NCBI RefSeq assembly: GCF_002101675.1
Contig: NZ_LQOY01000041.1
Coordinates: 1-34,364, forward strand
Source of the DNA: Mycobacterium gordonae
Lineage (GTDB): Bacteria > Actinomycetota > Actinomycetes > Mycobacteriales > Mycobacteriaceae
Reading direction: 5' to 3'
DNA length: 34,364 nt
A program made the translations under genes and the position numbers. This document shows positions 15,140 to 20,117 of the stretch, piece by piece. The notes beneath the pieces were generated by a model. It ran no database searches. It was not told the DNA's origin and saw only the letters and a list, made by a program, of their open reading frames with translations. Position 1 is the stretch's first letter; each line of letters opens with the position of its first letter.

Positions 15140-16387
15140 TCATTGCGCCGCAGCATCTTGCGATGTCTCACGCAGAAAGGCGCCTAGCCGGCGCACCCCT
15201 TCCCTGATCTGGTCGTTCGGTACGTGGCTACACGACAGCCTCAACATCGTGTCACCGGCCCGACCGGCGTAGAAGTCGCGCATGGGGGTCCACAGCACGC
15301 GATGGCACGCGGCGCAGTGTTGGAGTGCGGCGTGGTCCAGATCCCGTCGGGTCTGCATCACGACGAAGAACCCGCCCGTCGGCCGGTTCCAGCTGAGTCC
15401 GAGTTCGCTTGCGTCGGGGAACTCGTCGTCCAATGCGGTCAACAGCAGATTCCGCTTGTCGCGGTAGGAGTTTCGCAACATCCGCTGGCGCTCGGCGAGC
15501 GCGGCCGGATCCGACAGGACCAGCCCCGCGACCATGGCCTGGCTGAGGGCAGGCGTGTTGACGGTGGTGGTGTTCTTCAGGGTGGCCAGCCAGGTGGCCA
15601 GCGTGGACCCGTTCCAGGGCTGATCGGCGACTACATAGCCCACCCGGGCTCCGGGGAAACACACCTTGGAGAAGGTGCCGACCTGGATCACCACCCCGTG
15701 CTCGTCCAGAGCCTTCAGGGACGGCGGGACGTCAGGATCGGTGAAACCGTAAGTGGTGTCTTCGATTAAGAGCACTTGCCGCCCGCGAGCGGCGTGCAGC
15801 AGCTCCAGGCGGGCCTGCCGGGGAATCACGGTCCCTGACGGGTTTGCGAAATCGGGTGCCACGTACAAGGCTCGCAACGGCTCGCCCAAGGCGTCGGCCC
15901 GCCCACAGGCCGCCTCGAGATCCGCCGCTGTGACGCCCTCGGGGCCCTCGAGAACATCAACGGTTTGGGCACCCATGAAGGTCGCCGCGCCGCGAATCCC
16001 GGCGAAGGCCGGCGCAACGATGCCCAGGGTTCCGCGGCGATGGAGTTCCAGTGCGCGAAGGACGAGGATGAACCCCTCCTGGGCGCCAACGGTGATGGTG
16101 ATGTCGGTTGCGCCGACAGTGCAGGCACCGGCAGCCGAGAGTGCTCGGGCGAGATCGGCGTTGACGATCCCCTGGCTGGGGCCGTACTGAAACAGGGCAT
16201 TCCACCCCGGCGCTCCTGAATGACCGGCTACCTCGTCGACAGCGGCGATGACGCGCTCGCGGGTGATGCCGTCGAGTAACGGCGCTCCTGGGGCGAACGA
16301 GATGGCTTGCGGGTAGCGGGCCATCACCTCATTGAGAAATCCGATAGCGCCCAAGATCTCGGCTTCGGTCTCTGGCGTGCCCGTCAT
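15140..16387 (-). CDS. hpgT: HpgT-like PLP aminotransferase (dihydroxyphenylglyoxylate to Dpg)
   Basis: This fold-type I aminotransferase has 415 aa, with Asn182 in DFANPSG, Asp210 and Tyr213 in LLIEDTTYGF, the PLP lysine Lys241 in GTFSKVCFPGARVGY, and a C-terminal LRLSCSHVPNDQI. Its ATG overlaps the stop of dpgC by four bases (ATGA), so it is translationally coupled to the Dpg operon. In glycopeptide pathways HpgT (Pgat) aminates 3,5-dihydroxyphenylglyoxylate to (S)-Dpg, and also makes Hpg. No Hpg-forming genes (HmaS, Hmo) are seen here, so Dpg is the expected product. The family alone would allow other 2-oxo acids; the context makes the call. Confidence 0.88.
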   Translation of the reverse strand: MTGTPETEAEILGAIGFLNEVMARYPQAISFAPGAPLLDGITRERVIAAVDEVAGHSGAPGWNALFQYGPSQGIVNADLARALSAAGACTVGATDITITVGAQEGFILVLRALELHRRGTLGIVAPAFAGIRGAATFMGAQTVDVLEGPEGVTAADLEAACGRADALGEPLRALYVAPDFANPSGTVIPRQARLELLHAARGRQVLLIEDTTYGFTDPDVPPSLKALDEHGVVIQVGTFSKVCFPGARVGYVVADQPWNGSTLATWLATLKNTTTVNTPALSQAMVAGLVLSDPAALAERQRMLRNSYRDKRNLLLTALDDEFPDASELGLSWNRPTGGFFVVMQTRRDLDHAALQHCAACHRVLWTPMRDFYAGRAGDTMLRLSCSHVPNDQIREGVRRLGAFLRETSQDAAAQ

Positions 16388-17568
16388 AAACGGCTCGACA
16401 GCTTGCGGCGCACGTCGGGGGCGTGCATGCGCTCGGCTTGGACGACGGCGAAGTCGGCCAGATACGTCGCGAACTCGCTTTCGGACTCGATGCCGTGGGC
16501 GAGCATCAGCTTGTTGGGCATCACCGCGGGCTCCGAGAGCGCCGCGGCGACCGACGACACCGTCGCATCGACATCGGCGGCGCAGACCACGGCGTCGACC
16601 AGACCGGCCTGCATCGCCTCGGTACCGCTGAGTCGGCGTCCGCGCAGGATCAGCTCGCGGGCCATCGGCACGCCGACCCGCCGGGGCAGGCGCAGGTTGG
16701 CCACGCCGGGGACGATGCCCTCGCTCGCGGCGGGCAGGCTCACCCAGGCGTCATCGACGGCGACGACGTGGTCGCAGACGAGGGTGAGTTGCATGCCGCC
16801 GCCGATGGCGAAGGAATCGATGACGCAGATCCACAGGCGGGCGACGTCGCGCCCCGTCGCTGGATCATGCACGCCACGCGCGAGTTTCGACAGCAGCCCT
16901 GCTTCGCGGGCGATGAAGAAGTCGAGGTAGGAGATTTTGCCGGCGGCCAGGTGCTTGAGGTTGATCCCGGCGCAGAACACCCGCTTGCCGGCATAGGACG
17001 TGTATTCCATTGGGGCGCCGCGGATTACACCTACCGAGGTGGCGGGGTCCAGTGTCGCCACATCGACGGCCACCTCGACGTCGCGCATGAACTGGTTTGT
17101 TTCGGCGTTCAGCGTCATGGTGTTGGCCAGGGTCAGTTCGGCAAAGCCGGCCGCGCGTCTTAGCGAGACGGTTTCCAGGACGAGCTCACCGGTGGCCTGG
17201 AAGTGCGCGGCGTGGGCAGCGGACTCGGGCAGCGGGGCGCGCATGTCGGTCAGCGCGGGGACGGCGGTGGCGGGGTTGCGCAGCAGAGCTCGTAGGAACC
17301 TGCCCTGGTCCCGCTCGACCTGCAGCCGCTCGCTCGATCCCAGCTCGTCGTCCCGCTCTCGGGTGGCCCGATCCGGCAGCAGGTCGGGCAGCTGGTCACC
17401 GGCGGCGCGGACCAGGTCGCCCAGTCTGACCGGCCTGCGGTCACTGCCCGCCGTCAGCGTCCGGTAGATGTCGTCGATGTGCTCGTCGAACCAGGCCCCG
17501 GCGGCTCGTAGCTGCGGCGCCGTCGAGGGCCGATCCCACGGACTGGGCCGCGGAGTACGGTCGGTCAT
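16384..17568 (-). CDS. dpgC: DpgC: 3,5-dihydroxyphenylacetyl-CoA dioxygenase
   Basis: A 394-aa crotonase-superfamily protein with a long helical N-terminal region not found in ordinary hydratases. The core shows FCAGINLKHLAAGKISYLDF, then VIDSFAIGGGMQLTLVCDHV and VSLPAASEGIVPGVANLRLP, ending ILRGRRLSGTEAMQAGLVD. These match DpgC of glycopeptide clusters, a cofactor-free enzyme that uses O2 to turn 3,5-dihydroxyphenylacetyl-CoA into 3,5-dihydroxyphenylglyoxylate and CoA. The ATG at 17568 follows the dpgB stop with no gap. Length is near that of known DpgC (about 430). Order dpgA-dpgB-dpgC is as in glycopeptide producers. Activity is inferred from sequence and context. Confidence 0.93.
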   Translation of the reverse strand: MTDRTPRPSPWDRPSTAPQLRAAGAWFDEHIDDIYRTLTAGSDRRPVRLGDLVRAAGDQLPDLLPDRATRERDDELGSSERLQVERDQGRFLRALLRNPATAVPALTDMRAPLPESAAHAAHFQATGELVLETVSLRRAAGFAELTLANTMTLNAETNQFMRDVEVAVDVATLDPATSVGVIRGAPMEYTSYAGKRVFCAGINLKHLAAGKISYLDFFIAREAGLLSKLARGVHDPATGRDVARLWICVIDSFAIGGGMQLTLVCDHVVAVDDAWVSLPAASEGIVPGVANLRLPRRVGVPMARELILRGRRLSGTEAMQAGLVDAVVCAADVDATVSSVAAALSEPAVMPNKLMLAHGIESESEFATYLADFAVVQAERMHAPDVRRKLSSRL

Positions 17569-19295: not shown

Positions 19296-19301
19296 GGTGC
19301 C

Positions 19302-20117
19302 ATGTCCGCTGCGTTGGATCGGTTGGAGTTCGTCGGATACGAGAAGCGTGATCGGGTAGCCACGATCACCATGCGGCGCCCCGAAGTCCTCAACGCGATG
19401 AACGTGCGCATGCATGAGGAGCTCAGCCTGGTCTGGGAGGACTTCGAGACCGATCCGCAGATCTGGGCCGGCGTCTTGACCGGTTCGGGAGATCGCGCCT
19501 TCAGCGTCGGACAGGACCTCAAAGAACTCGCCGAGCGCGACACGAGCGGAGCCGCCGGGGTGTCGTCGTTCGGGAGCAGGGGTAAGCCGGGCGCACCGCG
19601 GCTGACCGACCGCTTTGATATCACCAAACCTCTGGTCGCGAAGGTGCGCGGATACGCGTTGGGTGGGGGCTTCGAACTTGCGCTCGCCTGCGACCTGATC
19701 GTCGCCTCCAGCGACGCGCAGTTCGGATTGCCCGAGGTCCGCTTGGGGCTGGTAGCGGGCGCCGGGGGCGTGTTCCGGCTGGGCCGTCAGCTGCCGGCGC
19801 GGGTGGCGGCCGGCTATCTGCTCACCGGCCGCCGCATGACAGCGCACGACGCCTTGCGCTACGGCTTGGTCAACGAGGTCGTCGCGCCGGATGAGCTTGA
19901 CGTCGCGACGCAAGCCTGGGTGGACGACCTGCTGCGGGGCGCACCGCTGGCCGTGCGCGCGACCAAGCAGGCCATGTGGCGCTCGCTGGACCTGCCGCTG
20001 CGGGACGCCTTCGACGAGGTCTATCCGTGTGAAGAACGGCGCAAGCACAGCAGCGACGCCAGAGAGGGCCCGCGGGCCTTCGCCGAAGGCCGGTCGCCGT
20101 CGTGGACCGGGACGTGA
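19302..20117 (+). CDS. dpgD: DpgD: enoyl-CoA hydratase/isomerase of the Dpg pathway
   Basis: This 271-aa crotonase has VATITMRRPEVLNAMNVRMH, oxyanion segments AFSVGQDLKELAER and VRGYALGGGFELALACDLIV, and FGLPEVRLGLVAGAGGVFRL with the catalytic-type Glu; the C-terminus is DAREGPRAFAEGRSPSWTG. DpgD normally follows dpgC in glycopeptide clusters; here it is split off and divergent from dpgA across 26 bases. Together with DpgB it is known to raise DpgA turnover to dihydroxyphenylacetyl-CoA. By sequence alone it is hard to separate from a housekeeping EchA; position beside dpgA is the main argument. Confidence 0.87.
   Translation: MSAALDRLEFVGYEKRDRVATITMRRPEVLNAMNVRMHEELSLVWEDFETDPQIWAGVLTGSGDRAFSVGQDLKELAERDTSGAAGVSSFGSRGKPGAPRLTDRFDITKPLVAKVRGYALGGGFELALACDLIVASSDAQFGLPEVRLGLVAGAGGVFRLGRQLPARVAAGYLLTGRRMTAHDALRYGLVNEVVAPDELDVATQAWVDDLLRGAPLAVRATKQAMWRSLDLPLRDAFDEVYPCEERRKHSSDAREGPRAFAEGRSPSWTGT

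Follow-up and report, generated by a model that had tools for sequence, protein, structure and literature searches.

Does a mycobacterium make 3,5-dihydroxyphenylglycine (Dpg), and into what product would it be built? Vancomycin-class antibiotics use this amino acid as a building block, and the glyoxylate from which it is formed comes from one of the few dioxygenases that work without a cofactor. The question is raised by a 34,364-nucleotide stretch of Mycobacterium gordonae DNA (hereafter the window), which is the entire contig NZ_LQOY01000041.1 (G000:C41) of a genome of 7.6 Mb in 260 contigs (G000). It carries dpgA, dpgB, dpgC, dpgD and an aminotransferase gene, and one of its ends is occupied by part of a non-ribosomal peptide synthetase (NRPS). 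We consider it quite probable that these five genes make Dpg and that a predicted assembly line, composed of a fatty acyl-AMP ligase (FAAL), a polyketide synthase (PKS) and NRPSs and ending in the window, incorporates the amino acid into a lipopeptide.

The sequence-only reading had placed dpgA, dpgB, dpgC and an hpgT-like aminotransferase gene in one operon with dpgD divergent from it, and the open reading frames (ORFs) and junctions were as it stated. On the reverse strand lie the gene for the hpgT-like pyridoxal phosphate (PLP) aminotransferase, which was assigned by homology and linkage (15140..16387; 415 aa, with K241 as the PLP lysine by motif position), dpgC for a cofactor-free dioxygenase-like protein (16384..17568; 394 aa), dpgB for a crotonase-fold helper (17569..18210; 213 aa) and dpgA for a type III PKS, predicted to be a 3,5-dihydroxyphenylacetyl-CoA synthase (18220..19275; 351 aa). 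The divergent dpgD, for an enoyl-CoA hydratase-like helper of 271 aa, is on the forward strand (19302..20117). In the ORF list, the aminotransferase gene overlaps dpgC by 4 bases, 0 bases separate dpgC from dpgB, 9 bases separate dpgB from dpgA, and the starts of dpgA and dpgD are 26 bases apart. This divergent spacer (19276..19301) was identical in G322, a complete genome of 6.8 Mb, whereas it measured 62 bases in the three nearest loci (L009, L010 and L011). The motif TAATCT, 6 bases 5' of the dpgD ATG, was retained in L009 and L010 and lost in L011; it suggests a leaderless-type promoter or a leaderless transcript. That the host is a mycobacterium, as had been proposed, agrees with a PE-PGRS gene at the contig end opposite the NRPS (1..813) and with the three nearest loci, all of them Mycobacterium records and one named M. 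innocens.

Can these proteins be identified as Dpg enzymes? We used the NCBIfam equivalog models, whose cut-offs are curators' thresholds and imply no defining residue. DpgA passed NF042429 (562.2 bits, cut-off 425), DpgD passed NF042430 (436.6 bits, cut-off 400) and DpgB narrowly passed NF042431 (141.4 bits, cut-off 140). For DpgC, NF042432 was by far the best NCBIfam model (the second-best reached 81.5 bits), and the solved DpgC structures 5kag and 2np9 were the best solved match (E ~1e-75), aligning over residues 25-390. All 12 checked positions were retained in all five mycobacterial copies of DpgC, among them the residues that we take to be catalytic or part of the oxygen pocket (E189, I235, R254, G296, Q299, P318 and I324, counted on the 5kag alignment). 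Two placements had been named beforehand as contradicting a Dpg pathway. For one of them, a DpgC among generic crotonases, the best model, the best solved match and the retained positions suggest that the protein, although diverged, belongs with the DpgCs. The other, a DpgA among non-Dpg type III PKSs, was not observed: when 36 type III PKSs were placed in a tree with six paralogues from the window genome as the root, DpgA grouped with 25 other DpgAs from actinobacterial loci, and the five mycobacterial DpgAs branched together from a long stem as one clade (SH-aLRT 100). The triad Cys136/His274/Asn307, which DpgA had been said to keep, was confirmed by motif positions.

No HpgT-named model was present among the best 25 of the 45 NCBIfam matches of the aminotransferase. 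Among the matches listed in a sequence search, several of its closest relatives were labelled (S)-3,5-dihydroxyphenylglycine transaminase at source, and the species named for close relatives included M. kansasii and M. paragordonae. In a genome-wide search with the model for 4-hydroxyphenylpyruvate dioxygenase (HPPD; HmaS relatives), the lone match was a fragment of 35.8 bits (cut-off 277). A 4-hydroxyphenylglycine (Hpg) route appears unlikely in the window genome and, because no HPPD-model match exceeded the cut-off, the aminotransferase probably does not serve Hpg and seems dedicated to Dpg. A glycopeptide-type Dpg pathway, that is, the set of DpgA to DpgD plus aminotransferase claimed earlier, is likely and well supported at the sequence level by models, residues and the DpgA tree.

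DpgC was found in 5 of 297 genomes in a sample of the genus (G000, G322, G440, G474 and G302), in 9 of 401 in a sample of the family (three from the genus of the window, its own included, and six from another genus at 40-43% identity) and in 10 of 198 in a sample of relatives. Since all five genes were present in each of the three named mycobacterial loci (L009, L010 and L011) as well as in G322, the set is not a chance assembly. In addition, G668, from another family of the same order, had two DpgC genes (L067 and L069; 43% and 40% identical to the window DpgC), and a 4.7 kb contig labelled Candidatus Melainabacteria (L038) encoded a DpgA relative (57%), which may be a binning error.

The proteins differed in how far they stand from those of other loci; each was compared with 21 to 39 other sequences, some of them truncated at locus ends. 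DpgC had a mean identity of 40.8% to 38 others, which averaged 59.6% among themselves; the corresponding values for mycobacterial versus other loci, and for the others among themselves, were 34.5% and 48.0% for DpgB and 41.8% and 54.8% for the aminotransferase. DpgA (61.0 versus 70.2%) and DpgD (62.1 versus 67.7%) were weaker outliers. By these identities, the mycobacterial DpgC is a diverged, separate subclass. All five genes have intact frames and show purifying selection: no stops were found in them when the window was compared with G322, DpgC was free of stops in all five genomes of the genus that have it, and the ratio of nonsynonymous to synonymous substitution rates (dN/dS) between the window and G322 was 0.140 for the aminotransferase, 0.152 for DpgC, 0.251 for DpgB, 0.164 for DpgA and 0.155 for DpgD.

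If the proteins act as their named homologues do, DpgA, aided by DpgB and DpgD, would convert four malonyl-CoA into 3,5-dihydroxyphenylacetyl-CoA, DpgC would oxidize this without a cofactor to the glyoxylate, and the aminotransferase would turn the glyoxylate into Dpg, a route described in the available parts of PMC5132015 and PMC3849588. The later steps are predicted from domains. A fatty acid would be activated by the FAAL-type ligase, extended once on a KS-AT-DH-KR module and joined to a first residue; Dpg would then be loaded on module 1 of a second NRPS, whose adenylation (A) domain has the code DAWSVGTMW; further modules with and without epimerisation (E) domains would add D and L residues until release by the thioesterase (TE) in the window, and the product would be exported by an ABC protein.

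What part of such a line can be seen? On the reverse strand, the window holds the C-terminal part of an NRPS (25204..34362; 3052 aa), which runs off the contig end with the order A(part)-T-C-A-T-E-C-A-T-TE, where T and C are thiolation and condensation domains. It includes a first complete A domain (30763..32253), an E domain with EGHGR and VGWFT motifs (29125..30483), a last A domain (26275..27747) and the TE (25249..25971). The final module is C-A-T-TE with no additional C-like domain, and thus no X domain ahead of the TE; a search with the TE yielded 25 relatives, the top ones at 53-54%, and no orthologue. In G322, the dpg genes lie beside two contiguous NRPS ORFs of 3955 and 16,063 aa plus the ABC gene. 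The larger one (G322:C1:176661-224852; L059, L049 and L050) comprises 15 C-A-T modules and a TE, with no E motif found in it; several of its module pairs are 98-100% identical, and by its sequence this giant NRPS is recently amplified. NRPS frames of up to 14,394 aa were seen in other genomes of the genus, where giant NRPSs are not rare.

Near-identical repeats of this kind may explain the contig breaks inside the NRPSs of G000, G440 and G474. In G000, contig C89 encodes a starter NRPS of 3999 aa, with an MbtH gene directly upstream, that runs from an N-terminal AMP-binding-type ligase, which we read as a FAAL, through ACP, KS, AT, DH, KR, ACP, C, A and T to E and is the orthologue of the G322 starter (81% over 4000 columns). 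C89 then carries 1861 aa of the start of a second NRPS (77% to G322) before the contig end cuts it. Another G000 contig, C8 (7506 bases), is NRPS throughout, with an E domain, and the genome holds further NRPS contigs. In G440 (L010), a single contig carries the dpg operon together with the ABC gene and an NRPS end. In G474, the NRPS end (79% to that of the window) lies near the ABC gene, and the dpg operon and the starter NRPS are on two other contigs. The window NRPS is likely the terminal part of a FAAL-PKS-NRPS lipopeptide line that is split over contigs, and C89, C8 and the window contig probably form this one line.

Which module would take Dpg? A profile built from the A domains of the window served as the alignment reference from which nine-residue codes were read, with the code positions on GrsA as we assume them to be. 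The two complete A domains of the window gave DVWTVTAIY and DFWTVGAVC, those of C8 gave DVWTVTAVY and DFWSVAAVY, and those of C89 gave DFWSVGMVH (starter), DAWSVGTMW and DFHTVGQVY. In G322 the starter had DAESLAAVC, and the second NRPS had DAWSVGTMW and DVQSLGAVW twice each, DAESLAAVC six times, DAESLAEVR twice and DYWSVAAVY three times. Among the readable modules, DAWSVGTMW was the sole exact code common to G000 and G322, and it also occurred in G474; it sits on module 1 of the second NRPS in G000 and G474 and on modules 1 and 2 in G322, and in none of the three does the starter carry it. Four of the five Dpg genomes (G000, G322, G474 and G302) had it, that is, every one with a readable module. 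G302 has it even though the NRPS of its Dpg cluster is a different one: contig C49 holds two copies, on A domains 67-72% identical to the others. One of these is the final module of the contig, and this end fits, by domain order, the T-R fragment (R, reductase domain) that opens the contig with the dpg operon.

DAWSVGTMW was absent from all 66 A-domain rows (6 incomplete) of two further G000 contigs and 25 other NRPS proteins, the latter from genomes not all established as Dpg-negative, one being M. innocens. Nor did it occur in the 27 best relatives whose genomes gave no match to DpgC; with three more from Dpg genomes, these made up the 30 loci read out of 206 genomes with a match. Over both sets, none of the 87 complete codes compared was DAWSVGTMW. 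The module on C89 with this code, whose A domain lies at 2737..4224 of that contig on the reverse strand, is the best Dpg candidate and the likely site of Dpg loading, and we infer that the code specifies Dpg.

The A domains of the window itself were considered as Dpg loaders and rejected. The code of its last module falls in a class, D[FY]W[ST][VL][AG]AV[CY], that is shared by the last modules of G322 and G440; because this class is common in mycobacteria (7 of the 66 other rows), it is not specific for Dpg. DFWTVGAVC was found in identical form on C257, another NRPS contig of G000, and a PDB search with this A domain gave no Dpg-specific hint. A code shared across other Dpg loci was also sought in the fetched stretches of nine genomes, which contained few A domains and no common code; only the Saccharopolyspora and Streptomyces Dpg loci of G735 (L076) and G740 (L087) shared one, DIWQ[AL]T[CA]DD. 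Thus, of the earlier proposal that Dpg is made for the neighbouring NRPS, the purpose remains plausible and the NRPS line is supported; the A domains in the window are unlikely to be the loaders, and the candidate module lies on C89.

It should be noted that several observations weigh against this interpretation. DpgC, at 366.6 bits, missed the NF042432 cut-off of 530; the DpgCs of L009 and L010 also missed it (~363 bits), and 6 of 7 non-mycobacterial DpgCs passed (sequences partly trimmed). Moreover, of the 102 alignment columns with a conservation of 95% or more among 38 other DpgCs, 26 were changed. No exact end overlap joined C89, C8 and the window, nor C49 and C128 of G302, and gene order on the dpgD side differed between the window and G322, with the sulfotransferase and ABC genes swapped. 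The candidate module of G440 is cut before its code. Because scoring was limited to five candidates in each genome and 30 loci were retained, the code could sit unseen in Dpg-negative genomes. The Dpg code of glycopeptide synthetases, which we take to be DPYHGGTLC(K) and did not locate in print, shares with DAWSVGTMW three of nine positions (235, 301 and 322). No printed Dpg A-domain code was found in the available parts of PMC11376024, PMC8708025, PMC10687080 and PMC6333238. Finally, although the six DAWSVGTMW domains formed two groups, 67-72% identical across and not sister in a FastTree tree, the tree is compatible with a single origin of the code. A broader proposal, that slow-growing mycobacteria possess a Dpg-lipopeptide family with giant, recently amplified NRPSs and a DAWSVGTMW pocket, unlike that of glycopeptide synthetases, which two A-domain lineages acquired through convergence or through exchange of pockets, has in our view an even chance of being right.

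Could the divergence of the enzymes mean a different product? DpgC, DpgB and the aminotransferase, the clear identity outliers, might have shifted in substrate to give a close relative of Dpg with another ring substitution or chain, and the changed DpgC columns and the dissimilarity of DAWSVGTMW to the presumed Dpg code would fit. However, DpgA, which sets the ring pattern, scored well above its cut-off and retained 117 of 135 conserved columns, and the checked DpgC positions were all kept, so we regard such a shift as improbable. It is likewise improbable that Dpg is made but serves another NRPS or purpose than the line ending in the window. Neither complete A domain of the window is a good Dpg candidate and G000 has more NRPS contigs, but DAWSVGTMW recurs on what appears to be the same line in three genomes, and close ABC relatives are confined to Dpg genomes (proteins at least 81% identical were found only in G000, G474, G322 and G440 among the 297 genomes searched; 15 further genomes had relatives at 68-75%).

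A non-amino-acid product, 3,5-dihydroxyphenylglyoxylate or 3,5-dihydroxybenzoate, serving as a starter or free metabolite is improbable as well. DpgA-D homologues do serve the 3,5-dihydroxybenzoate starter route of venemycin and kendomycin in Streptomyces (PMC5132015, in the parts available), and some other loci (for example, L012, L021 and L030) had dpgA-C without an aminotransferase gene within the fetched flanks. That route, however, uses a thiamine diphosphate (ThDP) decarboxylase and an aldehyde dehydrogenase, neither of which was among the 20 window proteins scanned; the window has an aminotransferase instead, whose gene not only overlaps dpgC but adjoins it in all five mycobacterial copies (window, L009, L010, L011 and G322). 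It is hardly credible that we are dealing with a relic operon in decay or with contaminating sequence. The sporadic spread of DpgC in the genus would be in line with it, but the stop-free DpgC in five genomes, the dN/dS values of 0.14-0.25 and the PE-PGRS gene on the same contig argue against it, as do the counterparts that 17 of 19 queried window genes outside the NRPS have in G322, all around its dpg operon.

These G322 counterparts were 79-98% identical for the flanking genes, 84-91% for the dpg genes and the aminotransferase, 83% for the ABC exporter and 69% for the sulfotransferase; the PE-PGRS and amidohydrolase genes had no match above 150 bits in the G322 cluster. Gene order was the same from dpgD through an acyl-CoA dehydrogenase. 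Beyond dpgD, the window contains the amidohydrolase gene (20573..22351), a sulfotransferase-family gene (22376..23344, reverse strand; 322 aa from the ATG at 23344, with the listed ORF beginning at TTG 23410) and the predicted ABC exporter (23435..25210, reverse strand). On the other side are a cytochrome P450 gene (13859..15121, forward strand) and, ~8 kb from the dpg operon, an additional enoyl-CoA hydratase-like gene (5906..6841), 95% identical in G322.

Pfam and NCBIfam scans of the sulfotransferase-family protein itself gave no family, and a PDB search gave no match; many of its close relatives bear PF13469 or a sulfotransferase name, and the family is widespread in mycobacteria. Both this gene and the P450 gene have counterparts with the cluster in G322 and L010, and their proteins may tailor the product. 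The P450 was considered as a glycopeptide Oxy cross-linker and rejected: its nearest solved structures were 4l0e (211 bits) and 3mgx (199 bits), which we take to be P450sky and OxyD, both presumably carrier-bound amino acid hydroxylases, but CYP125-type ancestors scored equally (207 bits). G302 (L011; C128 and C49) has a Dpg cluster of a second mycobacterial type, with an EryCIII-like glycosyltransferase gene after the aminotransferase gene and a C39-peptidase ABC transporter; its NRPS differs from that of the window and ends in T-R.

How does the locus compare with known systems? All five gene types of glycopeptide Dpg biosynthesis (DpgA-D and HpgT of balhimycin, vancomycin and A47934) are present with conserved DpgA and DpgC residues, and the order dpgA-B-C is that of most other Dpg loci seen. 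Unlike the glycopeptide systems, the window has a mycobacterial host, no HPPD/HmaS-type gene above the cut-off, a separate DpgC subclass, an aminotransferase gene directly behind dpgC, a divergent dpgD and no code like the presumed Dpg code. Clusters for glycopeptide antibiotics are marked by Hpg genes and by an X domain ahead of the last-module TE, and neither feature was found here. The closest published system that we found, judging from the parts of PMC3849588 available, is META-B of Xanthomonas albilineans, in which Dpg genes and HpgT lie beside a 16-module NRPS (a 32 kb gene), an ABC transporter and MbtH, and whose product was not identified there. META-B belongs to a different phylum and begins with a starter C domain, whereas the window line would begin with the predicted FAAL-PKS; its figure legend marks modules predicted for Dpg (PMC3849588), whereas the modules of the window line match no Dpg signature as we assume it.

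Mycobacteria make NRPS lipooctapeptides, as GL8P of Mycobacterium abscessus demonstrates (PMC11978893, in part). GL8P resembles the predicted product in being a mycobacterial acylated D/L peptide made by tandem NRPSs with MbtH and a TE; it differs in its peptide, T-A-F-I-Y-L-T-T with O-methyl-Tyr, and in having MmpL/MmpS genes where the window has an ABC exporter. The main text of PMC11978893 contains no word starting with hydroxyphenylglycine. PMC5916927, in the part available, models DpgA for comparison only. Our literature search, whose coverage excluded most subscription papers, retrieved no report of dpg genes, Dpg or a Dpg peptide in a mycobacterium.

On present sequence evidence, the best reading is a Dpg-containing lipopeptide family of mycobacteria, in which both the formation of Dpg and its loading are predicted. 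What appears new is a Dpg gene set in a mycobacterium, with its own DpgC subclass and a candidate A-domain code; the kind of pathway is already known. If the system works, the diverged DpgC would be available for the study of cofactor-free oxygenation, and the A-domain signature would be a new one that present predictors may misread. The hosts include the species of the record named M. innocens, and a working system would give a new envelope or secreted lipopeptide in a genus whose surface lipids are important for infection.

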